Shown piece after piece: positions 31,492 to 62,795 of a stretch of DNA of 64,000 bases. A program made the position numbers and the translations under genes. The stretch covers positions 1-64,000 of the forward strand of contig CAJQRD010000003.1 of NCBI GenBank assembly GCA_905480605.1, written 5' to 3'. The DNA comes from an uncultured Saprospiraceae bacterium (lineage in GTDB: Bacteria; Bacteroidota; Bacteroidia; Chitinophagales; Saprospiraceae). Within the stretch, counting starts at the first letter, position 1; every line of letters begins with the position of its first letter. Under the pieces are notes generated by a model. It was not told the DNA's origin. It searched no databases and saw only the letters and a list, made by a program, of their open reading frames with translations.

Positions 31492-31525
31492 GAATTTATA
31501 TCATTACATTGTATGATATTGGTCA
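31492..31525. promoter_or_regulatory. Tandem regulon site between hsp20 and flavodoxin gene
   Basis: Two elements with centres 22 bp apart: GAATTTATATCA (31492-31503, one good half) and TGATATTGGTCA (31514-31525, full). For flavodoxin, GAGATTTA (31549-31556) starts 29.5 bp past the centre of the full site. For hsp20, GATATTTG on the minus strand (31468-31461) starts 29.5 bp past the centre of the other. The layout suits class II activation by a CRP/FNR-type dimer in both directions. Confidence 0.65.
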
Positions 31526-31573
31526 TTCTATTGCTTCTAAAAAAAGAAGAGATTTATACAATAAAAATATCCC

Positions 31574-32083
31574 ATGAAGACTTTGATAATCTATACAACA
31601 TTAACAGGTCACACCAAAGTCTTAGCCAACGCAATTAAAGGTAAATTAGAAGAAGTTGATATCAATGAAGTAAAAATAAATACAAGAGTCTCAAAGTATA
31701 AGTTATTCCGAATATTTAAAATTGTCTTTCTTGACTTTATTCTAAATAAAATATCATATACACATCAGAAATTTGACGAAACCGAATATGACTTAATTAT
31801 TATAGGGTTTCCAATTTGGAGAGGTGAGATGCCAATCTTCTTTAAAAATATCTTGTTACAATATAACCTTTCAGAGAAAGCAGTTGCTTTTTTTTGCACA
31901 CATGGAAGTAAAGAAAAAAGTATTCATTCACAATATTTATCATATCTTAAAACAAACAATCTCATAGCAACATATTGCTGTCAGTCACCTATAAAGGTTA
32001 ATCCACCAGAAGAGAAAGAGAGGTTGCGCAAATTCATTCTTCAAATTGAATCCAAAATGGATAATCTCTTTAAGTATTCATAA
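31574..32083 (+). CDS. Flavodoxin-like protein
   Basis: A 169-residue flavodoxin-fold protein. The FMN phosphate loop is visible at the start (TTLTGHTK) and the aromatic isoalloxazine loop at GFPIWRGEMP. It resembles the flavodoxin_5/HemG-like branch more than electron-transfer flavodoxins, so it may be an FMN-dependent oxidoreductase. It is alone downstream of a regulon site and so is probably low-oxygen induced (inference). Confidence 0.8.
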   Translation: MKTLIIYTTLTGHTKVLANAIKGKLEEVDINEVKINTRVSKYKLFRIFKIVFLDFILNKISYTHQKFDETEYDLIIIGFPIWRGEMPIFFKNILLQYNLSEKAVAFFCTHGSKEKSIHSQYLSYLKTNNLIATYCCQSPIKVNPPEEKERLRKFILQIESKMDNLFKYS

Positions 32084-32090
32084 GTTATGA

Positions 32091-32125
32091 AAAACACATC
32101 AAGCATAACATTTCTATTGCTTGAT
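32091..32125 (-). terminator. Probable terminator of the 123-aa gene
   Basis: Stem ATCAAGCA (32098-32105) / TGCTTGAT (32118-32125). On the minus strand it is followed by GTG and a T run, downstream of the gene ending at 32176. Confidence 0.5.
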
Positions 32126-32175
32126 TACTTGCCGAAAGTATAGGTACGGTTGTAGGACTGGGGTAGCTGTCAATA

Positions 32176-32547
32176 TTAAGAGTGGTGCTCTTTAAATAAA
32201 TTATTGAAAATCGCAAACCTCTTAAATGTCTTTTTCATGCTCTCGTAATTTTTATCAAATTCACCAATTTCTTTTTGATATTCTTCAAAACCTTTAACAT
32301 CAAAAGTATTTTCATCGGTAGTGCCTTTATCAAAAACAAGATGATCAGAAATTAACTTATTTACGATTACTTTTTTCTTATCAATGATTTTCTCATATTC
32401 ATCTATATTTTCCATAGTGCGGAATTTTTGAATATTGGCCTCAAAAACTTTACTTAATATTTTATCAAATATTTCAAGTTCATCCTTGCAGAAAAACAAT
32501 TTTGTTTTTATTTCGTTCAAAATCTTATGGTTCTCATTACTTATCAT
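32176..32547 (-). CDS. Helical protein of unknown function (123 aa)
   Basis: A cytosolic, mostly alpha-helical protein, rich in Lys, Glu and Ile with a likely coiled coil. No family is recognised. Its size and composition are like the 124-residue product at 33684-34058 (four-helix-type pattern, no cysteine motif), so they may be distant relatives. It lies within the stress island but I see no convincing TGA-N6-TCA pair ahead of it. A weak terminator follows. Confidence 0.6.
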   Translation of the reverse strand: MISNENHKILNEIKTKLFFCKDELEIFDKILSKVFEANIQKFRTMENIDEYEKIIDKKKVIVNKLISDHLVFDKGTTDENTFDVKGFEEYQKEIGEFDKNYESMKKTFKRFAIFNNLFKEHHS

Positions 32548-32571
32548 AACTTATTTTGTTTTAAAAGAATC

Positions 32572-32602
32572 AAAAAGAAGGAGCTTATTATTGAACTCCT
32601 TC
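32572..32602 (-). terminator. Terminator of the DinD-like gene
   Basis: Stem GAAGGAG (32577-32583) / CTCCTTC (32596-32602), then a T run on the minus strand (complement of 32572-32576). It is about 120 bp after the DinD-like stop. Confidence 0.75.
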
Positions 32603-32721
32603 ACAACTAACATTAAACATATATAGTTTGTGTATCTGGTATAGTCGCATCCCAATTATGGTCCAAAACCCAGATAATCTGATTAACTAATAATTATATA
32701 GGGAAAAGATCGACTATGTGA

Positions 32722-33555
32722 TTACATTTCTGTATCCTGACCCTCAGATATTGGCAATTCTTTCACAGGTTTATTCATTATTTGTTTGGTCTCTTTCAAT
32801 CGCTTCTCAATAACAGCCAGGTCTTGCGCATTGGGTAATGATTCGGGGTTTCTTCCCAGATTACTATTAATAATATTGCGAATTTGCGAAGCTATTCTTT
32901 GATGCTCAAGGGCCGCTCGCTCCTGAGATGGGTTTCTTAAAGATTTTAATTTTTCATCAGTTAGGCTTATCCGGAACATATTGGCAGCCAATTCTGTCAT
33001 CGACATATAATCATACAAGTTTTTCTCAAGAGTGACATTTCTTAGGATTTTCAATTCAGGCATTGTATTGTTATATAGCCCCAAATAACCTGCATTGGCA
33101 AAAAATCTAAAATCTTTCACATGGGCTCTTCTGGCTGTTTTATTTAATTTAACATTCAACCTTTTCACCTCATCTCTTGCAATCAAACGATGTAAAAAAC
33201 CCTCATCTTTCAAAAGAGCATTCATACCCTCAAGCTTTTCTAAAAAATATGCCCGTGCCCTCTTAACCATTGGCTTGCGTCCGTCAGCATGAAGGGCTAA
33301 AAGAAAACAAGCAAACTTAGATAGTTTATAATCATTCCGTCTTCCATTTTTAAATGGAATAAAATTCTTATTGACATCAATATTCAACAATGAACACGTA
33401 CGCTTTGCTTCTTCAATATTGGCTTTAAATGTAAACAATCGTTTATAACCCAATACACTAGAGTACCAAGATGCCATCCAATAATAATGATCATCCTCGA
33501 CAACAGCAAAATCAATAAACGCTGGTTTATTCTTAGTCATTTTTTGGTTTGCCAT
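32722..33555 (-). CDS. DinD-like protein (DNA-damage-inducible D family)
   Basis: A 277-residue protein matching the known layout of E. coli DinD from end to end. An N-terminal BRO/KilA-like ANT segment (WYSSVLGYKRLFTF, SKFACFLLALHADGRKPMVKRARAYF) is followed by the middle block HRLIARDEVKRLNVKLNKTARRAHV, then FRFFANAGYLGLY, the very conserved MSMTELAANMFR, and LGRNPESLPNAQD near the end. DinD inhibits RecA strand exchange in E. coli. It is LexA-controlled there; here it faces a TGA-N6-TCA pair, so control may differ. The start ATG at 33555 may be MANQK. Confidence 0.8.
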   Translation of the reverse strand: MANQKMTKNKPAFIDFAVVEDDHYYWMASWYSSVLGYKRLFTFKANIEEAKRTCSLLNIDVNKNFIPFKNGRRNDYKLSKFACFLLALHADGRKPMVKRARAYFLEKLEGMNALLKDEGFLHRLIARDEVKRLNVKLNKTARRAHVKDFRFFANAGYLGLYNNTMPELKILRNVTLEKNLYDYMSMTELAANMFRISLTDEKLKSLRNPSQERAALEHQRIASQIRNIINSNLGRNPESLPNAQDLAVIEKRLKETKQIMNKPVKELPISEGQDTEM

Positions 33556-33604
33556 AGTTATTAATATTTAATACTAAGGTCCATATTATCTACTTTTGGA
33601 ATAC

Positions 33605-33638
33605 TGATCATTGTCATTATAAAGAATGATTTTAAGCA
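33605..33638. promoter_or_regulatory. Tandem regulon site between DinD-like and 124-aa genes
   Basis: TGATCATTGTCA (33605-33616) and TGATTTTAAGCA (33627-33638, one mismatch) have centres exactly 22 bp apart. GATATTTA (33662-33669) begins 29.5 bp past the second centre, as at the other regulon promoters, and drives the gene at 33684. On the minus strand GACCTTAG (33581-33574) lies at the mirrored distance for the DinD-like gene, a weaker match. Confidence 0.6.
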
Positions 33639-33683
33639 TTTACTATAAATTGAAAGATTAAGATATTTAAATAAAATAAAAAT

Positions 33684-34058
33684 ATGAGCACATTAGAAAA
33701 TATAGAGATTCAAGGTCAGCATTTACAGTGGAAATCAGCATTAGACAATTTACTTGCTGAGATTAAATTAATGGAACATAGTTTGGAATCAATGGTGACA
33801 ATTACCAAAGACAAATCGAGATCTAAAATGATAGAACACTTTCAAAACCAATTTATCATACAAACTTCTGAAATTAATAAATTGAAAAATGAAATTTTAA
33901 AACACGACATTTCAATTTCCAGAAAAACATCAGATAAAGATGAAAGTATGCAAGAGACAGAATTATATCATCATAATATAATTGGAAAAAAAGTTGATCA
34001 GCAAGAGTTTATTCTAAATAAACTGATAGAAGCTTTCAAGCTTTTTGAAAAGTCCTAA
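33684..34058 (+). CDS. Coiled-coil protein of unknown function (124 aa)
   Basis: An alpha-helical cytosolic protein without a recognised domain. It has a hydrophobic/charged heptad pattern (LDNLLAEIKLMEHSLESM, INKLKNEILKHDISI, VDQQEFILNKLIEAFKLFEK). It follows a tandem regulon site, so its expression is probably tied to the oxygen/stress response. A plus-strand terminator follows at 34095-34123. Confidence 0.65.
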   Translation: MSTLENIEIQGQHLQWKSALDNLLAEIKLMEHSLESMVTITKDKSRSKMIEHFQNQFIIQTSEINKLKNEILKHDISISRKTSDKDESMQETELYHHNIIGKKVDQQEFILNKLIEAFKLFEKS

Positions 34059-34094
34059 CTATTAATATTCTATTCATTGAGTTATTAATTAAAG

Positions 34095-34123: not shown

Positions 34124-34124
34124 A

Positions 34125-34469: not shown

Positions 34470-34503
34470 TGATATAAATCACTTTAACAAGTAATTAAAA
34501 TCA
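34470..34503. promoter_or_regulatory. Tandem regulon site upstream of the USP operon at 34566
   Basis: TGATATAAATCA (34470-34481) and TAATTAAAATCA (34492-34503, one mismatch), centres 22 bp apart. GAACTTCG (34527-34534), a degenerate -7 element, begins 29.5 bp past the second centre. Confidence 0.6.
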
Positions 34504-34565
34504 TATCTTGGTAAATAGTAAATGTAGAACTTCGCAATCAATATGTTAATTTTAAAATTACACTC

Positions 34566-35411
34566 ATGAAAAAGATATTAATACCAACAGACTTTTCTGA
34601 AAATGCAGGAGATGCTCTATCCTACGCTCTAGATTTTATTGCAAACCAAAAAGCAACAATACATATAGTTAACATTATTAATCCCAATTTCTTGCCTGTT
34701 GAGGCACCTGAGATGTCAGTAAACTTATTGGGTCAGGTCATTGATGATGCTAAAGAAAGAATGAAAGCACTAGAGGCATTTAGTGTGAAAAGATTTGGCA
34801 ATGATGAAAAAGCACAAATTAAAGTCACAACCGATGTAATTACTGGAACTGTTGCACAGTCAATAAAGAATGAAGCTATCGAAAAGAGCGTAGACTTAAT
34901 TATTATGGGTACTAAAGGTAAGAACCATAATCTTCCAAATAAAATTTTTGGTACAGTCTCTACAAGCACAATAACTGATGCACCATGTCCAATAATATTA
35001 ATACCTCAAGGTTATAAATTCAAGCCTATTAATACTTTGGTTTACGCCTCAAATCTAGAACCTGGAGATCCATACGAATTATGGAGAGCAACAGAATTGC
35101 TAAAGCCGCATGTAGGGATAGCAAAGGTTTTATACGTCAACACTAAGGGTAATAAAGAAGAGAACATTCAAAGATTTGCCTCATATATAGAATCTCACAC
35201 ACCAACAATTCAAACACAATTTCATACTGAAAAATCTGAAGAGATTGAAAAAACCATTATGGAATACTCAGAAAATCACGATGCAGAATTAATTGTAATG
35301 CATAGACTTCACAATTCATTTTGGTCAAAAATATTCAACAAAAGCCATACTAAATTGATGGTTTTCGAAACCAATATCCCATTAATGATTATCAATCACA
35401 ACGAAAAATAA
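34566..35411 (+). CDS. Universal stress protein, tandem two-domain
   Basis: A 281-residue protein with two UspA domains. The first is complete (start ILIPTDFSENAGDAL; ATP-type loop GTKGKNHNLPNKIFGTVSTS) and the second is degenerate, without a clear GxxG-9x-G(S/T) loop, so probably non-binding. USPs aid survival under starvation or low oxygen. It leads an operon with a DUF4136 lipoprotein and a small membrane protein. Confidence 0.92.
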   Translation: MKKILIPTDFSENAGDALSYALDFIANQKATIHIVNIINPNFLPVEAPEMSVNLLGQVIDDAKERMKALEAFSVKRFGNDEKAQIKVTTDVITGTVAQSIKNEAIEKSVDLIIMGTKGKNHNLPNKIFGTVSTSTITDAPCPIILIPQGYKFKPINTLVYASNLEPGDPYELWRATELLKPHVGIAKVLYVNTKGNKEENIQRFASYIESHTPTIQTQFHTEKSEEIEKTIMEYSENHDAELIVMHRLHNSFWSKIFNKSHTKLMVFETNIPLMIINHNEK

Positions 35412-36202: not shown

Positions 36203-36236
36203 TAACCAAAATCATACAAATAGATGATTCATATCA
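36203..36236. promoter_or_regulatory. Tandem regulon site upstream of the UbiB-type operon
   Basis: TAACCAAAATCA (36203-36214, one mismatch) and TGATTCATATCA (36225-36236, full), centres 22 bp apart. CAACTTTG (36260-36267), a 7/8 -7 element, begins 29.5 bp past the second centre. Confidence 0.7.
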
Positions 36237-36310
36237 CAGCAGTATAAATTTAAGAGTTGCAACTTTGACATAGTAAAGGATTTAGATTAATAATTATAAA
36301 AACTATTAAG

Positions 36311-36916
36311 ATGGAAAATGCAATATTAGAACGTTTTAAAAATCAAACGAAAAACTTAAAAACACTCAGTGAAGAATTGCGTTTGCAAATGGCATTGGGA
36401 AAAGCTGAAGCTAGAGATCTCATTGAGAGAGAAAGAAAAAATCTCAACAGTTATATTAACACACACAAAAAGGAATTTGAAAAATCAGAAACTGTCAATC
36501 AAACCAATAGGGTTTCATTTCTTACTTCAGTTGAAAACTTAGAGTCAGTTTTATCAGACAACGTACCAGAAGAAACTGTAGCGTATGACAAATACAAAAA
36601 TAATATATTGAAAAATGTGTATAAACTGGAAGAGGAAATTAAAACTAATTATCCTGAACTAAGTTTAAGTATGCAATCCAAACTTGACAATTTCAAAAAT
36701 AAGATGGATGCTTTTAGAGTAAATTTAGCTTTACATGACAAAGATGATCCAGAAAGAGTAGAAAAAATAAGACATGAATTTACAGGTAAGCTGGAAGAGA
36801 TTCGTGAAATTTTAAGTGATCGAGAAAATGCACAATCCAAAATTGATAGTTTCGTTGAGGATATTACGGAGTCATTTAACTACTTAAAAAGAGCTATCTC
36901 AGACTTATCTGATTAA
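36311..36916 (+). CDS. Coiled-coil protein of unknown function (201 aa)
   Basis: A 201-residue, highly helical, charged cytosolic protein with long heptad runs over most of its length (LEEEIKTNYPELSLSMQSKLDNFKNKM, VEKIRHEFTGKLEEIREIL). No domain is recognised. It ends two bases before the UbiB-type gene and is preceded by a strong regulon promoter; the two are one operon, so it may act with that kinase. Confidence 0.75.
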   Translation: MENAILERFKNQTKNLKTLSEELRLQMALGKAEARDLIERERKNLNSYINTHKKEFEKSETVNQTNRVSFLTSVENLESVLSDNVPEETVAYDKYKNNILKNVYKLEEEIKTNYPELSLSMQSKLDNFKNKMDAFRVNLALHDKDDPERVEKIRHEFTGKLEEIREILSDRENAQSKIDSFVEDITESFNYLKRAISDLSD

Positions 36917-38830: not shown

Positions 38831-40096
38831 CTATTTTTTATAAGGAAGTATTATAAAAAAGGTAGTCCCTTTTTCGGCTTCACTTTCGAAGTGTATTGAT
38901 CCACCCAATAGTTCAACATAGTGCTTTACAATATTCAAACCCAAACCTGTACCTTGAATATTTGTAACATTACTTGCTCTAAAGAATCTAGAAAACAAGT
39001 GTTTTTGATCATCATACGGTATTCCTATGCCAGTATCTTTAATACGAAATTCCATATTTGTATCATTAAAGTACACATTGCAATAAACTTTGTCACTGCT
39101 ATATTTAGTTGCATTAGAAATTAAATTAAAAAGTATATTTTTTAATATGCGTTGATCAATCAACATAGGTTGCGGATCACCATGTATTTCATGTATAATG
39201 ACTTGACCTTCTTTTTTTATTAATCCCTTTGTAGCATCTATGATCTCCAAGCACAAATCGTCTATATTCAAAGAAGTCAAATTAATTTCGACCTTTCCTT
39301 CTTCCAACTTACTTAAGGACAAGAAATCATTCAATATCCCCGTAAGTGTTGACACAGATGATTTTATTCTAGCAAGATGCTTGTCGATATTTTTATTCTC
39401 AATGCCTTGAACATATCGACCCAGTAATGAAGCGGAAGACAAAATTGAAGTCAAGGGAGTTCTAAACTCATGGGAAGCCATTGAAACAAATCTTGACTTT
39501 AGGTTACTCAATTCTATCTCTTGACTCAAAGCTTGTTTTAGCTCTACTTCACTTGCCTTAAGCTTAGACTCTATTGTTATTCTATCTTTAATTTCTTTTT
39601 CCAAACTAATATTGGTGTGCAACAGCTTATTCACAGCTTTTTCAAGATCTACTGTTCTTTGATTGACTTTGGCCTCAAGTTCTTTATTTAGACTAATAAT
39701 TTCTTCCTCCGCACGTTTGACCTCAGAAAGATCATGAATAATACCGGTAAAAATGACACGATTATTTAATATGACTTCACTAACAGCCAATCGGAAAGGG
39801 AATACTGTCATATCTTTTCTTTGCCCCTTAACTTCTCGCCCAGTTCCAATTATTTTTGGTTGTTTCGTCTTGTTATACCTGTGGACATACCCATCATGTT
39901 CTGAATGATAAGGCTCTGGCATTAACATTTTAATATTATTGCCTATAACCTCTTTCGGACTGTAACCAAAAATACCCGCAGCTGCCGGATTGATACTTTC
40001 AACAATGGCCTTGTCATTAATTGTTATAATCCCATCTATAGCTGTTTCAATTATAGACTGCAATGTCAATGCAAAATCACTAGATCCCTTACTCAT
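38831..40096 (-). CDS. FixL-like heme-PAS oxygen-sensing histidine kinase
   Basis: A 421-residue soluble sensor kinase. The N-terminal PAS (about residues 10-125) follows FixL closely: MPEPYHSEHDGYVHRY, KIIGTGREVKGQRKD, FPFRLAV, FTGIIHDLSE. His67 in EHDGY corresponds to the heme ligand (His200 in B. japonicum FixL) and Arg87 to the distal Arg220, with the same 20-residue spacing. After a coiled coil come HisKA (phospho-His209 in MASHEFRTPL) and HATPase_c (NLISNATKYS, DTGIGIP, GTGLGLNIVKH). The likely partner is the receiver-CRP fusion at 61677-62717. Confidence 0.93.
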   Translation of the reverse strand: MSKGSSDFALTLQSIIETAIDGIITINDKAIVESINPAAAGIFGYSPKEVIGNNIKMLMPEPYHSEHDGYVHRYNKTKQPKIIGTGREVKGQRKDMTVFPFRLAVSEVILNNRVIFTGIIHDLSEVKRAEEEIISLNKELEAKVNQRTVDLEKAVNKLLHTNISLEKEIKDRITIESKLKASEVELKQALSQEIELSNLKSRFVSMASHEFRTPLTSILSSASLLGRYVQGIENKNIDKHLARIKSSVSTLTGILNDFLSLSKLEEGKVEINLTSLNIDDLCLEIIDATKGLIKKEGQVIIHEIHGDPQPMLIDQRILKNILFNLISNATKYSSDKVYCNVYFNDTNMEFRIKDTGIGIPYDDQKHLFSRFFRASNVTNIQGTGLGLNIVKHYVELLGGSIHFESEAEKGTTFFIILPYKK

Positions 40097-40159: not shown

Positions 40160-40193
40160 TGATATTTATCATATTTTTAAGTGACTACAGTCA
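40160..40193. promoter_or_regulatory. Tandem regulon site between the FixL-like kinase and the USP operon
   Basis: TGATATTTATCA (40160-40171) and TGACTACAGTCA (40182-40193), both full matches, centres 22 bp apart. TACTTTTA (40217-40224) begins 29.5 bp past the second centre, so transcription starts near 40229. This makes the later ATG at 40239 the likely start of the first USP. The kinase gene lies on the other side, but no clear mirrored -7 element was found. Confidence 0.8.
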
Positions 40194-40238
40194 TTTAGAA
40201 AGCACCGTTAGCTCTTTACTTTTATGAAAATAGAAAAA

Positions 40239-49012: not shown

Positions 49013-49066
49013 AATTAATTTCTTTTCTTAAATCAAATATCATGGATAAATATTTTATTTACACTA

Positions 49067-49098
49067 ATTACGATCACTAATAAAAATGATATTTATCA
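49067..49098. promoter_or_regulatory. Regulon sites between the CBS/USP operon and cardiolipin synthase
   Basis: TAATTACGATCA (49067-49078, one mismatch) and TGATATTTATCA (49087-49098, full), centres 20 bp apart here. For the minus-strand operon a GATATTTG -7 element (49043-49036) begins exactly 29.5 bp from the centre of the first. For cls on the plus strand the -7 is less clear: TACATTTA at 49127, about 5 bp further away than usual. Confidence 0.6.
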
Positions 49099-50575: not shown

Positions 50576-50609
50576 TGATTTAAATCATGAAAAGGGGTGA
50601 CAACCATCA
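50576..50609 (+). promoter_or_regulatory. Tandem regulon site upstream of the cbb3 oxidase operon
   Basis: TGATTTAAATCA (50576-50587) and TGACAACCATCA (50598-50609), both full matches, centres exactly 22 bp apart. A degenerate -7 element TAACTTGC starts at 50633, 29.5 bp past the second centre. This is the position and logic of FixK/FNR boxes ahead of fixNOQP operons elsewhere. Confidence 0.8.
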
Positions 50610-50656
50610 TTAAATAGTGTTAACACAAACTATAACTTGCGCTAAAATAAGATATC

Positions 50657-50872
50657 ATGCAGATAATAATATTTCTGATTGCCTTGAGTCTAATGATAGC
50701 AATTGGGTTTTTATTTGCCTTTTTTTGGGCAGTTGGAGACGGACAATATGACGACGACTTCACCCCGTCCTTAAGAATACTGGTGGATGACGATATGATT
50801 CCCCCAACCCAAGACAATTCTCAAAACAATAATTTCAACGAATCAAAACCTGTTCAAAATGTCGAAGATTGA
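50657..50872 (+). CDS. ccoS: cbb3 oxidase assembly protein CcoS
   Basis: A 71-residue protein with one N-terminal membrane segment and the invariant FFWAVGDGQYDD motif of CcoS/FixS, needed for heme and copper insertion into CcoN. It leads the oxidase operon and its 3' end overlaps ccoN by 14 bases. Confidence 0.9.
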   Translation: MQIIIFLIALSLMIAIGFLFAFFWAVGDGQYDDDFTPSLRILVDDDMIPPTQDNSQNNNFNESKPVQNVED

Positions 50873-53000
50873 AACCTTCAGTTACGATAACAAAATCGTA
50901 AGAAACTTTGCTGTTGCCACTGCCATCTGGGGTCTAATTGGTATGCTCGTAGGTTTAATTGCTGCCTTACAATTGATATGGCCAGAATTAAATTTTAGTA
51001 ACCAATATATTTCATTTGGGCGAATAAGACCGTTACATACGAATGCTGTAATTTTTGCATTTGTTGGTAACGGTATTTTTATGGGTGTTTATTACTCACT
51101 CCAAAGGCTGCTTAAAGCCAGAATGTTTAATGATGTATTGTCCAAAGTTCACTTTTGGGGTTGGCAAGCCATTATTCTTGCTGCTGCAATTACTCTTCCT
51201 CTAGGGTTTACAAGCTCTGCTGAATATGCCGAATTAGAATGGCCAATAGATATTGCCATTGCTTTGGTATGGATAGTATTTGGAATCAACATGTTTGGTA
51301 CCATACTTAAGAGAAGAGAACATCATATGTATGTAGCCATTTGGTTTTACATAGCTACATGGATAACTGTAACCGTTTTACATGTTATTAAGAACTTGGA
51401 AATTCCAGTGCATATGTGGAATAGTATTCCTGTATTTGCAGGTGTTCAAGATGCTCTAATACAATGGTGGTACGGACACAATGCTGTTGCCTTTTTCCTG
51501 ACAACACCTTATCTGGGATTGATGTATTACTTTTTACCAAAAGCGGCCAATCGTCCGGTTTACTCATATAAGCTTTCGATTATACACTTCTGGGCATTGA
51601 TATTTATATACATATGGGCAGGTCCGCACCATTTATTATATACTTCATTGCCTGATTGGGCTCAATCATTAGGAACTGCATTTAGTTTGATGCTAATTGC
51701 GCCTTCATGGGGTGGAATGTTAAATGGACTATTGACGTTAAGAGGTGCTTGGGATAAAGTGAGAAGAGATCCCATACTTAAGTTTATGGTAGTTGCTGTA
51801 ACCGCATATGGTATGGCAACTTTGGAAGGTCCGTTATTAAGTATCAAATCAATAAATGCAATTAGTCACTATACAGATTGGACTGTAGGTCATGTGCATG
51901 TCGGTACTTTGGGATGGAATGGTATGTTGACCTTTGGTATTCTTTACTGGCTATGGCCACGATTATATGGTACAAAATTATTTTCAACGAAATTGGCCAA
52001 TCAGCATTTTTGGCTAGGAACGCTAGGCACTTTATTTTACACCATCCCATTATATTGGGCAGGATGGACACAAAGTATGATGTGGAAGAAATTTACAGAA
52101 GATGGCTTTTTAGCATATGGTAATTTCTTAGAAACAGTTACGCAGATAATTCCTATGTATATGATAAGAGCAGTAGGTGGAACAATCTACGTCATAGGAG
52201 TATTTCTCATGATTTATAATCTTTGGAAAACGGCTCAGGCTGGAAAACTAATTGAGAATGTAGAAGCAAGTGCTCCTCCTAGAGAAAAATATGTTGCACA
52301 TAAAGGAGAACACTGGCACAGATGGATAGAACGAAGACCAGTTCAGTTATTGGTAATAAGTGCTGTAGTTGTACTGATTGGAGGACTTGTTGAGATTTTC
52401 CCAATGCTGGTCATAGATAATAATGTTCCAAAAATTGAAAGTGTCAAACCATACACTGCACTTGAGCTAGAAGGTAGAGACATCTACATCAGAGAAGGTT
52501 GTGTCGGGTGTCACTCACAAATGATTAGACCATTTCGGTCTGAGACTGAACGGTATGGAGAATTTTCAAAATCAGGTGAGTTTATTTACGATAGACCATT
52601 TTTATGGGGAAGTAAACGAACGGGACCAGACCTACATCGTATTGGACAAAAGTATCCAGACAGTTGGCACTTTAACCACATGTATGATCCGGAAAGTATG
52701 TCTCCTGGATCAATCATGCCGCCTTATCCTTGGCTACTAGATCAAGATATAAATACTGATTATACCGCTGCTAAGATTAGAGTTCTGAAAATGCTTAACA
52801 CACCTTATCCTCACAATTATGAAAATGAGGCCGTGGACAAACTTAAAGCGCAAGCTAAAATAATAGCCAAATCTATTGTTGAAGAACTTGCCGAAGAAGA
52901 AATAGACTTGGAAGTATTAGAAACCAAAGAAATTGTAGCTCTAATCGCTTACTTGCAAAGATTAGGTACAGATATAAAACCTAAAACATTAGATAAATAA
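50859..53000 (+). CDS. ccoNO: cbb3 cytochrome c oxidase, fused CcoN-CcoO
   Basis: A 713-residue fusion of subunits I and II of the high-affinity oxidase. Residues about 1-480 are CcoN with 12 or more membrane segments; His60 in RPLHTNAV is the low-spin heme b ligand, and QWWYGHNAV, WAGPHHLLY and VGHVHVGTLGWNG bear the copper and heme ligands. Residues about 500-713 are CcoO with a membrane anchor and one heme c site CVGCH at about 548-552 plus a late SIMPPYPWL Met ligand. Such fusions are known in Bacteroidota. Confidence 0.96.
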   Translation: MSKIETFSYDNKIVRNFAVATAIWGLIGMLVGLIAALQLIWPELNFSNQYISFGRIRPLHTNAVIFAFVGNGIFMGVYYSLQRLLKARMFNDVLSKVHFWGWQAIILAAAITLPLGFTSSAEYAELEWPIDIAIALVWIVFGINMFGTILKRREHHMYVAIWFYIATWITVTVLHVIKNLEIPVHMWNSIPVFAGVQDALIQWWYGHNAVAFFLTTPYLGLMYYFLPKAANRPVYSYKLSIIHFWALIFIYIWAGPHHLLYTSLPDWAQSLGTAFSLMLIAPSWGGMLNGLLTLRGAWDKVRRDPILKFMVVAVTAYGMATLEGPLLSIKSINAISHYTDWTVGHVHVGTLGWNGMLTFGILYWLWPRLYGTKLFSTKLANQHFWLGTLGTLFYTIPLYWAGWTQSMMWKKFTEDGFLAYGNFLETVTQIIPMYMIRAVGGTIYVIGVFLMIYNLWKTAQAGKLIENVEASAPPREKYVAHKGEHWHRWIERRPVQLLVISAVVVLIGGLVEIFPMLVIDNNVPKIESVKPYTALELEGRDIYIREGCVGCHSQMIRPFRSETERYGEFSKSGEFIYDRPFLWGSKRTGPDLHRIGQKYPDSWHFNHMYDPESMSPGSIMPPYPWLLDQDINTDYTAAKIRVLKMLNTPYPHNYENEAVDKLKAQAKIIAKSIVEELAEEEIDLEVLETKEIVALIAYLQRLGTDIKPKTLDK

Positions 53001-53012
53001 AACAATTAAATC

Positions 53013-53198
53013 ATGTATAAATATATATTAGAAACTGCAGGTAATATTAATTGGATGGCCTTGTTTGCTTTGTTAACTTTTGTAACAATATTTACACTAT
53101 CTGCATATCTTGTTTTCAGAAAAGATAAAGAGGAATTAAATAGATTATCAAGTTTACCACTAGCTGATGATGACCCTATTATTGTCAAATCTAATTAA
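53013..53198 (+). CDS. ccoQ: CcoQ-like small oxidase subunit
   Basis: A 61-residue single-pass membrane protein (WMALFALLTFVTIFTLSAYLVF) with a charged C-terminus. It sits between ccoNO and ccoP, the standard place of CcoQ/FixQ; similarity beyond size, topology and position is low. Confidence 0.75.
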   Translation: MYKYILETAGNINWMALFALLTFVTIFTLSAYLVFRKDKEELNRLSSLPLADDDPIIVKSN

Positions 53199-53209
53199 TA
53201 AAGAGGAAC

Positions 53210-54106
53210 ATGAAAACTAAAGCAATTAACTTAATCGGTGTAATATTACTTTTGCCAACTATTACTTTTTCAACACCTACAGCAGGAAGTGCAAAGTTTC
53301 AATGGATTTTTGAAAATATAGTTTTGGTATTAGGTTTGTTGGTTATTATAGCCGTCTTCTTCTCGCTGTGGAATTTGGCCAGTGCAATAATGAATCAAAA
53401 AATTGATGAATTACGCGGTGGAGAATCTATAGAGACGATAAAAAAAGGACCATCTATATTTAAAAAATTATATGACAAATCCTGGAACCTAATTCCTATG
53501 GATAAGGAAGCAGATTTTGATTTAGGTCATGACTATGATGGTATTAGAGAATTAGACAACTCGCTTCCTCCATGGTGGACATATACATTTTACCTTACCA
53601 TAGTATGGGCAATTGGATATATCTTTGTTTTTCATATGTCTGATATCGGTCAAAGCCAAAGTACAGAATATGCAGTAGAAATGGAAGATGCTAGAATTGC
53701 CAAGAGAAACTTCCTTGCAAGTAAACCAGATGATGTCAATGAAAGCAATGTAATTTTTGTTGGAGATCCTGAAGCTCTCGAAATTGGTAAAACAAGGTTT
53801 ATTCTTTCTTGTGCTGCATGTCACAATGTTGATGGTCGTGGAGGAGTAGGGCCAAATCTAACGGATGAGTATTGGATTAATGGTGGTAGTATACAAGATA
53901 TATTTAAAACTATAAAATATGGTGTTCCTCAAAAGGGAATGATAGCTTGGGCTTCACAAATTCAACCTTCAACAATGCAGAAGGTTGCCAGTTATATTTT
54001 GACTTTACAGGGGACAAATCCACCAGAACCAAAAGCACCTCAAGGAGAAATTTATGTAAGAGAAGAACCAATTCAAGTGACCGAAGCAATAGAGGAAGAA
54101 CAATAA
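53210..54106 (+). CDS. ccoP: cbb3 oxidase subunit CcoP with a single heme
   Basis: A 298-residue membrane-anchored cytochrome c. Two membrane segments (about 30-55 and 118-145) precede the periplasmic part, with the cbb3 N-terminal-type block LDNSLPPWWTYTFYLTIVWAIGY. Only one CxxCH, CAACH at residues 201-205, is present, with a late Met ligand near QKGMIAW. Classical CcoP has two hemes; this shorter form is found in Bacteroidota. It transfers electrons to the oxidase. Confidence 0.92.
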   Translation: MKTKAINLIGVILLLPTITFSTPTAGSAKFQWIFENIVLVLGLLVIIAVFFSLWNLASAIMNQKIDELRGGESIETIKKGPSIFKKLYDKSWNLIPMDKEADFDLGHDYDGIRELDNSLPPWWTYTFYLTIVWAIGYIFVFHMSDIGQSQSTEYAVEMEDARIAKRNFLASKPDDVNESNVIFVGDPEALEIGKTRFILSCAACHNVDGRGGVGPNLTDEYWINGGSIQDIFKTIKYGVPQKGMIAWASQIQPSTMQKVASYILTLQGTNPPEPKAPQGEIYVREEPIQVTEAIEEEQ

Positions 54107-54110
54107 AACT

Positions 54111-55610
54111 ATGAGCAGCACCAATCAGGAAGATTATCGTGACTCAATTGCTACGGTGGATAACTCAGGCAAACGAATTTGGATTTATCCTAAAAAGCCC
54201 AAAGGTGGTTTTTATAATAAAAGAAAGCTAGTCACATATATACTATTACTGATCTTATTTGGATTACCATTTATAAAATACAATGGTAATCCACTGGTGC
54301 TTTTTAATATACCTAAAGGTGAGTTTATTATCTTTGGAATTTATTTTGCACCCCAAGATTTTCATCTCTTTGTAATTGCAATGCTCATCGGAATCGTTTT
54401 CATTGTCTTGTTTACTGTAATATTCGGTCGTATATTCTGCGGCTGGGTTTGTCCTCAAACAATATTTATGGAAATGGTATTCCGTCGTATTGAATACTGG
54501 ATAGAAGGTGACTACAAAGCACAAATAAGACTAAATAAGAGCAATTGGAATCAAAACAAGAAACTCGCGAAAAAAACATTAAAACATTTTCTATTTATTC
54601 TTGTATCAGCTGTAATTGCACATACTTTCTTGTCCTATATTATTGGTATTGATGCACTATGGGAATTGATGACATCACCAGTAGATGCTCATTGGACTGG
54701 ATTATTTGCAATGATAGGTTTTACAACAGTGTTCTATGGTGTATTTGCTTTTATGCGAGAGCAAGTGTGTACAACAATTTGTCCTTATGGTAGATTACAA
54801 GGTGTGTTGCTCGACGAAAACTCACTAGCTGTAGCTTATGATTTTGAAAGAGGTGAACCTAGAGGCAAATTGGTAAAGGCTAAAAAAGGGAAAAAATCTG
54901 AATGCAAAGATGGATGTTCGACATGTAAAACCAATGATTCCTCATGCCCATCAAAAACATTAAATGCCACATTGGAAAACTTCCTACCAGAACCCAAAGG
55001 AGATTGCATCGACTGTAACCTTTGTGTTCATGTCTGTCCAACTGGAATAGATATAAGAAACGGTACACAATTAGAATGTGTCAACTGTACTGCTTGTATG
55101 GATGCCTGTGATGAAGTCATGATTAAGATAAAGAAGCCCACAAGGTTGATTAGAATAGACAGTTATAATGGAATAGCAACAGGAGCCAGGTCACTTTGGA
55201 ATACAAGAGTAGCGGCATACTCCCTCGTATTAATATCCCTAATTGTCTTGGAGTCATTTCTATTTATATCTAGATCAAGTATTGAAACTCTATTCTTACG
55301 TACTCCTGGAATGCTTTACCAAAAACAAGACGATGGTTACATAAGTAATCTATACAATTACCAATTGATAAATAAAACAGATTTAGAATCTGAAATAACA
55401 TTTATTGTAAAAGATATAGAAGGCGCGATAATTGAAGTAGTAGGTGAAGCACCAAGAACACAAATTAGAAAAATATCAGAAGGTGCAGTTTTTATAAAAC
55501 TACCAGCTTCATCACTTTCTTCTAGAAAAACAAATCTTGTTATAGAAGTCATCGCTGATGATAAAGTTATAGATAAAGTTAAAACAAGTTTTTTAGGACC
55601 AAGAAAATAA
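54111..55610 (+). CDS. ccoG: Cbb3 assembly ferredoxin CcoG
   Basis: A 499-residue membrane protein of the CcoG/FixG/RdxA family, which reduces copper for CcoN assembly. Membrane segments surround FCGWVCPQTIFMEMVFRRIE and CTTICPYGRLQGV. Two 4Fe-4S ferredoxin motifs follow: CIDCNLCVHVCP and CVNCTACMDACD. A C-terminal Ig-like domain (DLESEITFIVKDIEGA) completes it. It starts four bases after ccoP. Confidence 0.95.
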   Translation: MSSTNQEDYRDSIATVDNSGKRIWIYPKKPKGGFYNKRKLVTYILLLILFGLPFIKYNGNPLVLFNIPKGEFIIFGIYFAPQDFHLFVIAMLIGIVFIVLFTVIFGRIFCGWVCPQTIFMEMVFRRIEYWIEGDYKAQIRLNKSNWNQNKKLAKKTLKHFLFILVSAVIAHTFLSYIIGIDALWELMTSPVDAHWTGLFAMIGFTTVFYGVFAFMREQVCTTICPYGRLQGVLLDENSLAVAYDFERGEPRGKLVKAKKGKKSECKDGCSTCKTNDSSCPSKTLNATLENFLPEPKGDCIDCNLCVHVCPTGIDIRNGTQLECVNCTACMDACDEVMIKIKKPTRLIRIDSYNGIATGARSLWNTRVAAYSLVLISLIVLESFLFISRSSIETLFLRTPGMLYQKQDDGYISNLYNYQLINKTDLESEITFIVKDIEGAIIEVVGEAPRTQIRKISEGAVFIKLPASSLSSRKTNLVIEVIADDKVIDKVKTSFLGPRK

Positions 55611-55617
55611 AAACAAA

Positions 55618-56043
55618 ATGAAAATGAACTGGGGTTATGGCATAATGATTTTTTACATCTGCTTTGCAAGTACGTTGCTATTTGTTTTGATACAATCCTT
55701 TGGTGTCAAACACAACTTGGTTGTTGACAATTATTACGATAATGACCTGGCATATCAAACTACAATTGACAAAAAAAATAATTACTTAAAGTCAAATAAT
55801 GTTATTATTAAGACGAAGAAGAAAGAAGATAAAATTGAATTTAATTTTATACGCACCAAATCATTAAGTGGTAATATACACTTCTATCGTCCTTCAAATA
55901 AAGATGAGGATTTCATTATTCCTATTCTTGAAAGTACATTTACATTTGACACAAAAAATATTTCAAATGGCAAATGGAAGGTAAAGATAGACTGGCAAGA
56001 TGAAAATGTATTTTATTATCATGAAAAGGATATCTATTTGTAA
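55618..56043 (+). CDS. ccoH: FixH-family protein CcoH
   Basis: A 141-residue protein with one N-terminal membrane segment (IMIFYICFASTLLFVLIQSF) and a periplasmic beta-rich domain ending KWKVKIDWQDENVFYYHEKDIYL, the typical FixH end. It stabilises cbb3 during assembly. Its stop overlaps the start of the SafE-like gene by one base. Confidence 0.88.
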   Translation: MKMNWGYGIMIFYICFASTLLFVLIQSFGVKHNLVVDNYYDNDLAYQTTIDKKNNYLKSNNVIIKTKKKEDKIEFNFIRTKSLSGNIHFYRPSNKDEDFIIPILESTFTFDTKNISNGKWKVKIDWQDENVFYYHEKDIYL

Positions 56044-56741
56044 TGTACTACCTAGGACTGACATTGGGGCTTTTTGGAAGTTTGCATTGCATCGGAATGT
56101 GTGGTCCACTGGCAATAGCTTTCTGTATCAGACCCAATGCTACAAAGTCACAAATATTATTTAATGCCTTGACATACAATATAGGTCGAACATTAACCTA
56201 TACCCTATTGGGAATAATATTTGGATCAATAGGTTCGTTCCTCTTTCTAGTGGATCTTCAAAAATATCTCTCTATAATAATTGGAGTTATCCTCATAACC
56301 TCAGTGCTGTTTTCTTTAGATCTTGAATCGCGTTTTAATAAGATTTCCTTTTTAAGCAGGATCAATTTTTATATAAAAAACAAGATATCAAAACTTGTAA
56401 GTTTATCCCAGACCAAATCACCATTGAGCTTAGGAATGATTAATGGTTTGCTTCCATGTGGGTTGGTTTACTTAGCCATAGCTGGAGCATTATCTTCACA
56501 GACTATGATGAGTGGTGCATTGTTTATGATGATGTTTGGATTAGGCACAATCCCGGCCTTATTTTTATTAGTTATCGGTTCTCAATCTATTAGTCCAAAA
56601 ATAAGGTCCAGATTTAGGCAGTCCCTTCCTTTTGTAAATATTCTATTTGGTATATTCTTAATCTACAGAGGTGTAGCGGTGGATATGCCAGAGAGTTTAA
56701 ATTTTTGGGAGGCGATTAAGAATCCTATTTTATGTCATTAG
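56043..56741 (+). CDS. SafE/TauE-like membrane protein of the cbb3 operon
   Basis: A 232-residue protein with six to seven membrane segments. The start, GLFGSLHCIGMCGPLAIAF, carries the HCxxMCGP motif of the DsbD-like sulfite-exporter/SafE family found next to cbb3 and copper genes. It is likely to handle copper or thiol redox for oxidase assembly (inference from context). Last gene of the operon. Confidence 0.87.
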   Translation: MYYLGLTLGLFGSLHCIGMCGPLAIAFCIRPNATKSQILFNALTYNIGRTLTYTLLGIIFGSIGSFLFLVDLQKYLSIIIGVILITSVLFSLDLESRFNKISFLSRINFYIKNKISKLVSLSQTKSPLSLGMINGLLPCGLVYLAIAGALSSQTMMSGALFMMMFGLGTIPALFLLVIGSQSISPKIRSRFRQSLPFVNILFGIFLIYRGVAVDMPESLNFWEAIKNPILCH

Positions 56742-59895: not shown

Positions 59896-59991
59896 CAAAA
59901 ATAAGGAAGGCTTCAAAATACAAAGGTGATTCTAATCATTATTAACAATGACATGCATCATCATAGACACTATGAACTGTACATACATTTG
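59896..59991. promoter_or_regulatory. Divergent regulon promoter of hemN and ccoI
   Basis: Two full sites, TGATTCTAATCA (59927-59938) and TGACATGCATCA (59949-59960), centres 22 bp apart. On the plus strand TACATTTG (59984-59991) begins 29.5 bp past the second centre; on the minus strand TATTTTTG (59903-59896) begins 29.5 bp past the first. Both are full TAnnTTTG matches. This is the cleanest example of the regulon promoter and works symmetrically in both directions. Confidence 0.85.
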
Positions 59992-60008: not shown

Positions 60009-61376
60009 ATGGAACACATTAAGTCATCTAATTCGTTACTTGAAAAGTACAACACAAGGGTTCCTCGTTATACAAGCTACCCTACTGTACCGCATTGGAA
60101 CACTATCCCGCCCACCCAAGAACAATGGTTTTCATTATTGAGGGAAAATTATAAATCAAAAGACGGATTTAGTCTTTATATTCATCTTCCTTTTTGTGAG
60201 GCGTTGTGCACATATTGTGGCTGTAATAAGAGAATTACAAAAAATCACGCAGTTGAATCACCTTACATCAATGCCGTTATAAAAGAGTGGAAGATTTACT
60301 TAAACGAACTCGAAGAAAGACCAATAATCAGGGAGATTCATCTAGGTGGAGGGACACCAACTTTTTTCAGCCCAAGTCAACTTAACAGATTGATTTCTAC
60401 AATTATAGATACTTCAACACTTACAAAAGATGCGGACTTAAGCTTTGAAGCGCATCCCAGCTCAACTACATATGAGCATTTATCAACTTTAAAAAAATTA
60501 GGTTTTAGTAGAATTAGCATTGGCGTACAAGACGTATCTCCAGAGATATTAAAAGCCATTAACCGTCATCAAACAATTGATCAAATCAATGATGTTACAA
60601 ATTGGGCCAGATCTCTTAGATATACATCTGTAAATTATGACATTATTTATGGTCTACCCTTCCAACAAGATCATAACATAACACAGACAATAAAATTGAT
60701 TGCAGATAATAAACCAGACAGAATAGCTCTTTACAGTTATGCTCATGTACCTTGGAAGAGTACAAGTCAAAGAGCATTTACGATCAATGATATTCCAAAA
60801 GGTCAGGAAAAAGCACGCTTGTTTCAATTGAGTAAAACTCTTTTAAAGACATTAGGGTATAAATCAGTTGGCATGGACCACTTTTGCCTTGAAGATGATG
60901 CACTTTATCAATCATTCATAACAGGTAACATGCACAGAAACTTTATGGGCTATACGCCTAATTTCACAAAGTGCAGTATTGCATTAGGAACTTCGTCAAT
61001 AAGTGATGCTTGGAATGTCTATGTGCAAAATGAGAAAAAAGTTGAAACGTATCAAGAAATTATCAATACGGGTAAGTTACCAATAATCAAAGGTCACTTG
61101 TTAAGTAATGAAGAAACACTGATGCGGAAAACATTTTTAGACCTGATGTGTAAAAACGAAATTGAATTAAATCAAAATGACAAAAAATTTAACTTAATAA
61201 AACCATACTTGGAGAATCTTACTGAATTATCAGATGATGGTTTGGTTAAATTATATGATCAAAAAATCAAAGTCACAGAAAAAGGGCAACTGTTTATTCG
61301 GAATATATGTTCGAGTATAGATCCATTGTTTCAAAATACAGAAAGCACAAAAGAGCTGTTTAGTTCAGCCATATAA
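60009..61376 (+). CDS. hemN: Oxygen-independent coproporphyrinogen III oxidase
   Basis: A 455-residue radical SAM enzyme that makes protoporphyrinogen IX without oxygen. The 4Fe-4S cluster motif CEALCTYC (Cys63, Cys67, Cys70) with the following Gly-Cys is present, then HLGGGTPTF, and NYDIIYGLPFQ near the middle. The full HemN C-terminal domain follows. It is a classic FixK/FNR target and here sits behind a perfect regulon promoter. Haem made this way serves the cbb3 oxidase at low oxygen. Confidence 0.96.
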   Translation: MEHIKSSNSLLEKYNTRVPRYTSYPTVPHWNTIPPTQEQWFSLLRENYKSKDGFSLYIHLPFCEALCTYCGCNKRITKNHAVESPYINAVIKEWKIYLNELEERPIIREIHLGGGTPTFFSPSQLNRLISTIIDTSTLTKDADLSFEAHPSSTTYEHLSTLKKLGFSRISIGVQDVSPEILKAINRHQTIDQINDVTNWARSLRYTSVNYDIIYGLPFQQDHNITQTIKLIADNKPDRIALYSYAHVPWKSTSQRAFTINDIPKGQEKARLFQLSKTLLKTLGYKSVGMDHFCLEDDALYQSFITGNMHRNFMGYTPNFTKCSIALGTSSISDAWNVYVQNEKKVETYQEIINTGKLPIIKGHLLSNEETLMRKTFLDLMCKNEIELNQNDKKFNLIKPYLENLTELSDDGLVKLYDQKIKVTEKGQLFIRNICSSIDPLFQNTESTKELFSSAI

Positions 61377-61399
61377 ATTATAAAGTAGATGAGTTATAC

Positions 61400-61669
61400 T
61401 TACTTCATTTTATTAACCTTGCCAATCATACAACTTACATAAGACTTTGCAGTTTCAATTACTGTGGGGTCGTTTTCCGTATAACCAGCTTTGGCAAGAT
61501 CAGATACTATATTATAAGCTATTTTTTCATCGGGAGCATCAAATGAAACCGAGCCAGATTCAACATCAACATTTACCACAGCCTGCTTATTGATAGCTTT
61601 TATTTTTTGCTCAACCGTATGAGCACAACCCCCACATTTGATATTATTTAAAATATATGTAAAATCCAT
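61400..61669 (-). CDS. Heavy-metal-associated (HMA) domain protein
   Basis: About 89 residues from MDFTYIL at 61669, seven bases after the stop of the receiver-CRP gene; a longer frame to 61696 would overlap it. The HMA motif is KCGGCAHTV (CxxC), the usual copper site, in a beta-alpha-beta-beta-alpha-beta domain, with a short C-terminal extension ending VSCMIGKVNKMK. Likely a copper chaperone for CcoI or cbb3 assembly. Confidence 0.8.
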   Translation of the reverse strand: MDFTYILNNIKCGGCAHTVEQKIKAINKQAVVNVDVESGSVSFDAPDEKIAYNIVSDLAKAGYTENDPTVIETAKSYVSCMIGKVNKMK

Positions 61670-61676
61670 CTTTTTT

Positions 61677-62717
61677 TTATTGGGGTATACATTCAAGACC
61701 TTTCATATTTAAAATTTCAATTTTTCCACTTTTCACCTGGATAAGACCTTCAGATTTAAAGTCAGATATTGTACGAATAGTTGTTTCCTTTGCAGTACCT
61801 GCTAGGGATGCCAAATCTTCTCGCTTTACATCCAAGACATCCATGCTTGTATTTTTTTGTAATTCCAACAAAGCATGAGCAACTTTTTTCCTTACCGAAC
61901 TGTAAGCCAAGTTTATCAATTGTCGTTCAGTATGATCCGCATGTTTAGCCAACATGGATATAAACTTAGCAGCAAAGTCTCTATTGTTAAAAAGTAACAT
62001 TTTAAAGTCTTCTTTTGGGATAAGTCGGATTTCAGCATCTTCGATTACCATTGCGGTATCATCATATTTATTACCAGTGATAAGTGGAACGAATCCGAAA
62101 AAATCGCCAGGTCCATACAATTGGGTTATAAGTTCTTTCCCAATTTCATTTGTTTCAAAACATTTTACTTGCCCCTTGATAATAAAATATAACCAACTGG
62201 GATAATTTCCTGAATTATAAATAGTATTTTTTTTCTGAAAGCTTCTCACCTCCCTATCTTCAGATAGTTTGCTTAATGCTTCTTCGCCTTTAGCCTCATT
62301 GATAAGAAGACGAATACCTTCATCTGAATTGTCAACAACTTTTAAGCGATCAGCTTTTGCAAGGCGTATTTCAATGGATTCCAAAAGTTCAACATCATCA
62401 AAAGGTTTGGTAATGTAATCATCTGCACCCAAGCCCATACCTTTCCTAAAATCTTGTTTTTCCACTTTTGCAGTTAAAAACATAAATGGTATGTCCATAA
62501 GTTCAGGTGAATTATTTAATATTTTCAAAACACCAAAACCATCAAGTTCTGGCATCATAACATCACAAATTATCAAATCAGGTCTATTTTCTTCAGCTGA
62601 TCTCACCCCAATTTTACCATTCTCGGCAGTGAGTACATTATAACCAGAAAGCTCTAATATTTCAGCTAAATTCTCCCTAACCTCCTGAGTATCTTCAATT
62701 ACTAGAATTTTTTTCAT
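61677..62717 (-). CDS. Receiver-CRP/FNR fusion response regulator
   Basis: A 346-residue regulator. Residues 1-120 are a receiver domain (phospho-Asp52 in ICDVMMPELDG, LTAKV, Lys104 in TKPFD). Residues about 150-265 are a cNMP-binding-type beta-roll (YNSGNYPSWLYFIIKGQV, GPGDFFGF). Residues about 275-346 are a CRP-type winged helix with the recognition helix AGTAKETTIRTISDF (Glu and Arg at the CRP DNA-contact positions). There are no FNR-type cysteines at the N-terminus, so it does not sense oxygen itself; the FixL-like kinase is the likely input. Confidence 0.93.
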   Translation of the reverse strand: MKKILVIEDTQEVRENLAEILELSGYNVLTAENGKIGVRSAEENRPDLIICDVMMPELDGFGVLKILNNSPELMDIPFMFLTAKVEKQDFRKGMGLGADDYITKPFDDVELLESIEIRLAKADRLKVVDNSDEGIRLLINEAKGEEALSKLSEDREVRSFQKKNTIYNSGNYPSWLYFIIKGQVKCFETNEIGKELITQLYGPGDFFGFVPLITGNKYDDTAMVIEDAEIRLIPKEDFKMLLFNNRDFAAKFISMLAKHADHTERQLINLAYSSVRKKVAHALLELQKNTSMDVLDVKREDLASLAGTAKETTIRTISDFKSEGLIQVKSGKIEILNMKGLECIPQ

Positions 62718-62738
62718 TTTGTTGACGTTCTATTTACA

Positions 62739-62795
62739 CAAATATAATAAAAGTCCCCATATGACTAAAATCACCCTAAGCTATGACATGTATCA
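62739..62795. promoter_or_regulatory. Divergent regulon site between receiver-CRP and CBS/USP genes
   Basis: TGACTAAAATCA (62762-62773) and TGACATGTATCA (62784-62795), both full, centres 22 bp apart. For the plus-strand CBS gene GATCTTTG (62819-62826) starts 29.5 bp past the second centre (activation). On the minus strand a full TATATTTG lies at 62746-62739, only 21.5 bp from the nearer centre, so binding there would cover the -33 region of the regulator gene and suggests repression (inference). Confidence 0.7.

Follow-up and report, generated by a model that had tools for sequence, protein, structure and literature searches.

Introduction

In Alphaproteobacteria, the FixL-FixJ-FixK cascade combines a FixL-type PAS kinase with a CRP-family protein without Fe-S cysteines; it uses a palindrome with a TGA...TCA core and has a cco-type oxidase and heme genes among its targets (in part after PMC4999443). 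The FixK/FnrN-type motif is reported as TTGANCNNGATCAANG (PMC4999443). FNR/FnrN regulons likewise consist of low-oxygen genes controlled by CRP/FNR family proteins at sites with a TGA-N6-TCA core. In the DosR dormancy regulon, heme sensor kinases and two-component control act on Usp and Hsp20 targets at low oxygen. At class II/class III promoters of E. coli CRP, one dimer is located at -41.5 and a further dimer lies upstream. We analysed a stretch of 64,000 nucleotides (the window) from an uncultured Saprospiraceae bacterium (assembly GCA_905480605.1, contig CAJQRD010000003.1, positions 1 to 64,000). It carries, at nine intergenic regions, two TGA-N6-TCA copies in tandem with centres 22 bp apart, some with mismatches, followed 23 nucleotides (nt) further on by an element resembling TAnnTTTG, the -7 element of Bacteroidota. 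The system around these sites resembles the FixL-FixJ-FixK and FNR/FnrN systems in the features named for each above; its most likely regulator is a receiver fused to a CRP-type DNA-binding half (REC-CRP). We consider it quite probable that the tandem pair and its -7 element are the promoter code of a low-oxygen regulon, bound by two CRP/FNR dimers, with REC-CRP as the most likely reader.

Tandem sites in the window

The first-pass annotation, made from the letters of the window, had claimed eight TGA-N6-TCA pairs at a centre distance of 22 bp, each with a TAnnTTTG-like element 29.5 bp past the proximal centre. When the coordinates were re-read by script, all eight pairs were present and every listed element stood where it had been placed. 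A ninth region (49065/49087 on the plus strand; 49098 on the minus strand) also has a 22-bp pair, with one mismatch, and pairs are thus found in 9/9 regions. The match to TAnnTTTG is 6/6 at 59984, 5/6 at 62819, 36260 and 40217, and 4/6 at 33662, 31549, 34527 and 50633. We call two TGA-N6-TCA copies plus TAnnTTTG a composite site and score it out of 18 fixed letters. The names cco and hemN and several other gene names in the window were assigned by eye.

The four pairs described as full are all exact. Pair 59927/59949 with TACATTTG at 59984 (59927..59991, plus strand; 18/18) lies 5' of a hemN-like gene; on the minus strand, this pair together with TATTTTTG (59896..59960; 18/18) is found 5' of a CcoI-like ATPase gene. 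Pair 62762/62784 with GATCTTTG (62762..62826, plus strand; 17/18) is located between the REC-CRP gene and a CBS-domain gene, and a counterpart pair occupies the corresponding place in the relative locus L051. Pair 40160/40182 with TACTTTTA (40160..40224, plus strand; 17/18) is located between a FixL-like kinase gene and Usp genes, and pair 50576/50598 with TAACTTGC (50576..50640, plus strand; 16/18) stands 5' of a ccoNO-like gene in a co-directional context. Three further pairs have a single mismatch in one copy, as had been described: 36203/36225 with CAACTTTG (36203..36267, plus strand; 16/18), 5' of the gene at 36311 and co-directional; 33605/33627 with GATATTTA (33605..33669, plus strand; 15/18), which can also be read on the minus strand (33574..33638; 15/18), 5' of the gene 32722-33555; and 34470/34492 with GAACTTCG (34470..34534, plus strand; 15/18), 5' of the Usp-like gene at 34566. 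The pair 31492/31514 has one copy with only a single good half, again in agreement with the earlier description. This is the distal copy when the pair is read on the plus strand with GAGATTTA (31492..31556; 14/18), 5' of a flavodoxin-like gene; read on the minus strand with GATATTTG (31461..31525; 15/18), the pair lies 5' of an Hsp20 gene. In the ninth region, 49098/49076, with one mismatch and again GATATTTG (49034..49098, minus strand; 16/18), stands 5' of a CBS-domain gene and the genes that follow it. Three minus-strand promoters had also been claimed; the positions 31468 and 59903 were right, and the third element begins at 49041, not 49043.

At 59896-59991, one tandem pair is flanked on both sides by perfect -7 elements that serve the hemN-like and ccoI-like genes. 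This is likely a bidirectional promoter.

Spacing and -7 distance in the genome and in relatives

Exact 22-bp pairs occur 4 times in the window against a mean of 0.015 in 200 dinucleotide shuffles, and composites of at least 16/18 occur 7 times against a mean of 0.035. No window composite of this score was found at spacing 20, 21, 23 or 24, and with the spacing held at 22 and the -7 element shifted to offset 21, 22, 24 or 25 the counts were 1, 3, 0 and 0. The earlier annotation had proposed to compare spacings genome-wide and to look for the sites in relatives, and both comparisons came out for 22 bp. In the draft genome of the window (G000, 4.51 Mb), exact pairs at 20/21/22/23/24 bp number 0/5/13/1/5. 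Over any gap of 0-30 there are 43 exact pairs vs 9 with the reversed pattern, which gives 0 at 22 bp. None of the 13 pairs at 22 bp lies within an open reading frame (ORF) of at least 80 codons. At 21 and 24 bp there are 10 pairs, of which 9 do, and their number may reflect codon phase. Composites with at most 3 mismatches in the 18 letters amount to 49 vs 1 for the control, with clusters on the window contig and on contigs C20 and C78.

For the relatives, genome contigs were searched with a profile made from a REC-CRP alignment. The best 80 of 575 relatives, with flanks of up to 10 kb (1.41 Mb in total), were taken as loci L051-L130; they come from records named Saprospiraceae, Chitinophaga, Cyclobacteriaceae, Dyadobacter, Spirosoma, Hymenobacter, Pontibacter, Reichenbachiella and others. 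The nearest, a Saprospiraceae metagenome-assembled genome, has 73% identity. These loci contain 66 exact pairs at 22 bp (36/80 loci) and 7 at 23 bp; every other spacing between 12 and 60 has 0-4, and four control motifs gave 0 or 1 at each spacing. Of 131 oriented flanks, 59 have TAnnTTTG (at least 5/6) starting 23 nt beyond the proximal site, and no other offset from 0 to 69 has more than 5. After unpaired exact sites the element peaks at 23 (49) and 45 (65), with 4-20 at other offsets, a pattern that 22-bp pairs with one degenerate member would produce. Composites of at least 16/18 number 150 (58/80 loci) at spacing 22 vs 1, 1, 15 and 0 at 20, 21, 23 and 24, and with spacing 22 and the -7 element at offsets 20-22 or 24-26 there are 7-27. 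These loci also contain a small class of pairs spaced at 23 bp (7 exact pairs; 15 composites of at least 16/18) in which the -7 element keeps its distance of 23 nt, and the 15 composites suggest that 23-bp spacing is a minor variant. It is confirmed that the paired sites are real and extend far beyond the window.

The 150 composites give the consensus TGAY-N4-RTCA, though their selection biases the 18 columns that were scored. A complete distal copy is present in 124 of them and a complete proximal copy in 93; the distal site is better conserved. The base before the proximal TGA is A in 0.32, C in 0.35 and T in 0.23 of the sites, and the conserved outer T/A of the TTGA...TCAA form of FixK/FnrN sites was not found among these 150. 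Between the proximal site and the -7 element, the information content is 0.61 bits in one column, beside the proximal site, and no higher than 0.19 in the others; no -33 element is evident in these sites. When eight relatives were examined, the composites preceded homologous genes, and their inner letters and spacers differed from those of the window; two of the eight, L054 and L198, have a single site only.

Two other arrangements were observed. Triple TGA-N6-TCA arrays with successive distances of 22 bp are found at G150:C5:324937-324992, G007:C2:2518584-2518639, L078:7625 and L086:11063, which suggests longer rows of adjacent dimers. A recurrent variant has TAT for TGA in the proximal left half beside a perfect distal site (G174:C4:238420, G049:C3:386584 and others). 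A scan of 296 genomes for the distal site plus TAnnTTTG served as a source of examples only, since it matched in 181/296 and its controls matched too.

For Flavobacterium psychrophilum, transcription starts that have been mapped put TAnnTTTG at -12 to -5 (PMC9723704). Together with the distance of 29.5 bp, this would put the proximal centre at -41.5 and the distal centre at -63.5. The proximal site is thus predicted to be in the class II position, by analogy with the element position in F. psychrophilum.

REC-CRP and its candidate partner kinase

REC-CRP (346 aa; 61677..62717, minus strand), the proposed reader of the sites, consists of a receiver, a cNMP-binding-like domain and a Crp helix-turn-helix (HTH), with Pfam matches above cut-off to PF00072 (100.7 bits), PF00027 (64.9) and PF13545 (60.9). 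Its profile matches CRP and FNR chains, and with its beta-roll and Crp-type HTH it is a member of the CRP/FNR superfamily as judged from its sequence. D9, D52, T82 and K104 of the receiver are invariant in 30 aligned homologues, as are E311 and R315 of the HTH. By its receiver REC-CRP is also a response regulator, and phosphorylation is predicted. It is not FixK proper, because all 30 aligned homologues have the N-terminal receiver, and it is likened to FixK in function only; it is not FixJ either, as its DNA-binding half is Crp-type and not a NarL/LuxR-type HTH. The Arg which we take to be the cAMP contact of E. coli CRP is, by eye, not conserved in A1, and this bears on REC-CRP as a cAMP sensor.

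The proposed partner of REC-CRP is a FixL-like histidine kinase (421 aa; 38831..40096, minus strand) with a heme-type PAS. FixL structures give the best match to this PAS (1d06, E 1.9e-28), and their heme-His segment aligns with it; HisKA and HATPase_c matches are also present. The His in the FixL alignment is presumably the heme ligand. Having a PAS with this His, HisKA and HATPase, the protein is by sequence a FixL-type heme-PAS kinase, and heme binding is predicted. In 70/80 loci, a kinase with a homologous transmitter ends at most 200 nt upstream of REC-CRP on the same strand, and among 69 kinases that were aligned (that of the window and 68 of the 70), 64 have His at the heme-His position.

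The distribution of both proteins was surveyed in a panel of 296 genomes from the phylum, 73 of the class of the window and 223 outside it. FixL-PAS kinases (E<=1e-18) occur in 16/73 genomes of the class, all 16 of them REC-CRP-positive, and 14 of 18 such kinase genes in the class adjoin REC-CRP by coordinates. That a FixL-like kinase accompanies REC-CRP makes low-oxygen input likely in the organism of the window. Two kinase/REC-CRP sets are present in its genome: on C20 the two genes are adjacent, and in the window about 22 kb separates them. The set on C20 (L211, G000:C20:10000-22000), a second FixL-like kinase with REC-CRP, has three exact tandem pairs nearby, and its neighbours, named by eye, include phenylalanine-hydroxylase-like, pyruvoyl-tetrahydropterin-synthase-like and di-heme-peroxidase-like genes.

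Candidate target genes

A likely target operon (50859..56741, plus strand) comprises ccoNO-, ccoP-, ccoG- and ccoH-like ORFs, named by eye, and a downstream membrane-protein gene. Homologues of these genes stand in the same order beside composite sites in relatives. The 80 loci contain 188 composites of at least 15/18. An ORF follows 150 of them (the longest within 350 nt), and 83 of these ORFs match a window protein: CcoNO-like 16, Usp-type 15, kinase 10, Hsp20 8, CcoI-like 7, HemN-like 7, YgiW-like 6, CBS 5, REC-CRP 4 and others 5. The remaining 67 include short spurious ORFs and were named by eye only. In the genome of the window, sites also precede genes that by eye are phosphoenolpyruvate (PEP)-synthase-, phosphotransacetylase/acetate-kinase-, phenylalanine-hydroxylase- and di-heme-peroxidase-like. 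Overall, the set of targets seems to comprise cbb3 oxidase, hemN, Usp, CBS, Hsp20 and fermentation genes.

On C78 (L210, G000:C78:1-20000), a composite cluster lies beside genes that resemble, by eye, PEP synthase, ATP-cone, thioredoxin and phosphotransacetylase/acetate kinase genes.

Distribution and alternative explanations

Full-length REC-CRP homologues were found in 43/73 genomes of the class and 0/223 outside, among the matches listed; at most 7 candidates were scored per genome and matches were listed to E of about 1e-30, so that absences are soft. At least 2 exact pairs occur in 29 of the 43 class genomes with full-length REC-CRP vs 4 of the 30 without (Mann-Whitney p 5e-6, a value that ignores relatedness). 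In genus g18 the figures are 4/4 with REC-CRP vs 0/13 without. Outside the class, more than 3 exact pairs were seen by eye in 1/223 genomes (G271, 7 pairs).

Several observations weigh against REC-CRP as the reader, or against a low-oxygen code as a whole. No exact 22-bp pair is found in 44/80 loci. Fewer than 2 exact pairs occur in 14/43 REC-CRP genomes, mostly of family f5, and REC-CRP therefore does not always imply exact tandem sites. Conversely, four class genomes (G150, G017, G111 and G273) have at least 2 pairs without full-length REC-CRP, which indicates that the pair is not specific to it. The -7 element in front of the REC-CRP gene itself is poor (14/18). As for oxygen, the FixL-like gene of the window lies about 22 kb away from REC-CRP, a close FixL-type PAS was found in only 15/80 loci (the other kinases share the His, and their heme binding is putative), and FixL-PAS kinases also occur in 40/223 genomes outside the class. 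An AlphaFold model of REC-CRP (pLDDT 78.1, pTM 0.40) is uninformative on the domain arrangement.

Another CRP/FNR-family protein, FNR-like or another Crp, might read the sites, with REC-CRP a mere neighbour. The genome of the window has six CRP-type HTH matches above the Pfam cut-off, two REC-CRPs and four others; by eye, none of the four has an N-terminal CxxC. All four class genomes with at least 2 pairs and no REC-CRP have an FNR-like match, and in two of them, G150 and G273, the 3' end of the FNR-like gene is followed at 54-71 bp by a pair, which stands at the front of the next gene. In all 29 FNR-like proteins read (L154, with stops, was excluded), an N-terminal CxxC is present and two further Cys stand, by eye, at matching spacing, which suggests an Fe-S cluster. 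In some relatives, these Cys-rich proteins may be readers of the code. As a general explanation, though, the other reader has to face the absence of an FNR-like match from the genome of the window at E<=1e-40, and genus g18, where pairs track REC-CRP (4/4 vs 0/13) though 17/17 genomes have an FNR-like match. Moreover, 26 class genomes have an FNR-like match but lack REC-CRP, and at least 2 pairs occur in only 4 of them, which makes the FNR-like link the weaker one. We therefore regard a reader other than REC-CRP as unlikely in the genome of the window. The notion that receiver-driven contact between dimers is the sole cause of the 22-bp spacing is weakened as well, since pairs occur where the only candidate found is a receiver-less FNR-like protein.

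A different account would take 22 bp as the packing distance of back-to-back divergent promoters with one class II dimer each. By ORF strands, 7 of the 9 window regions lie between divergent genes. The contexts of the 66 exact pairs in the relatives are 31 divergent, 29 co-directional, 5 inside script-called ORFs (set aside) and 1 at a contig end; 61 of the 66 have a -7 element at 23 nt in at least one direction. Six of the 31 divergent pairs have -7 elements (at least 4/6) on both sides, as packing would have it. The co-directional pairs speak otherwise, because all 29 retain both sites, with 27 forward -7 elements (at least 4/6) and 2 reverse against a background of 7%. This means that single promoters carry two sites, and divergent packing as the origin of the pairs is disfavoured by these contexts; we hold it to be improbable.

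Chance or compositional repetition in AT-rich DNA, for which one could cite the over-representation of single TGA-N6-TCA in the window (56 vs 32.5 expected) and 21- and 24-bp pairs above the average gap, has a negligible probability and is regarded as refuted by the shuffles, reversed controls, spacing histograms, location outside ORFs and conservation despite diverged spacers.

Proposed mechanism

The first-pass annotation had proposed two CRP/FNR dimers bound in tandem at class II promoters of one regulon, and this proposal is supported at the sequence level by the spacing, the -7 distance, the intergenic location, the targets and the conservation. From these features we infer which protein would bind, and how binding, oxygen sensing, cooperativity and activation might proceed. 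Two homodimers of a CRP/FNR-family activator would sit side by side on the same face of the DNA, with two helical turns between their centres at -41.5 and -63.5. Loading would probably begin at the distal site, which is the better conserved, and this would help to fill the weaker proximal site. The dimers would take the role of the -33 element, which is missing, and bring in the Bacteroidota RNA polymerase that reads TAnnTTTG. In the genome of the window the activator is most likely REC-CRP, whose phosphorylatable receiver, fused to the CRP-type DNA-binding half, would be phosphorylated at low oxygen by the FixL-like heme-PAS kinase. The functions of FixL, FixJ and FixK would then be condensed into two proteins.

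We further put forward, tentatively and at slightly less than even chances, that this two-dimer code (-41.5/-63.5, no -33) is a standard low-oxygen switch of Bacteroidia and older than its readers; a phospho-activated REC-CRP and Fe-S FNR-like proteins would have been swapped on it, the inputs being exchanged and the DNA grammar kept.

These results give, at base resolution, a grammar of promoters for oxygen limitation that applies to a wide group of environmental Bacteroidota and lets regulons be predicted directly from sequence. A two-protein short form of the FixLJ-FixK cascade is proposed, and the system would provide a natural example of one cis code used by different sensors. How a promoter is activated when adjacent dimers sit at a fixed place upstream of a polymerase that has another consensus is a further question.

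Comparison with known systems

We found no description of this code or of REC-CRP in Bacteroidota in the literature listings and abstract openings consulted. With DosR, the present system would have the heme sensor kinases, the two-component control and the Usp and Hsp20 targets at low oxygen in common; it differs in that DosR has a NarL-type DNA-binding domain and an unrelated binding sequence. As with E. coli CRP at class II/III promoters, one dimer would be placed at -41.5 and a further one upstream; here, however, there is one fixed upstream position (-63.5), the dimers would be adjacent, no -33 element is conserved, and the polymerase consensus is another one. FNR/FnrN regulons differ in the reader, no FNR-like match having been found in the genome of the window (E<=1e-40), and in that the code here includes a second site, at -63.5. 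Compared with FixL-FixJ-FixK, the receiver and the CRP-type DNA-binding half are joined in one protein and there is no separate FixJ; there are two sites at 22 bp, the outer T/A of TTGA...TCAA is unconserved, and the -7 element is that of Bacteroidota. In summary, the proposed control is of the kind known from FixLJ-FixK and FNR, in a condensed two-protein form with paired sites.

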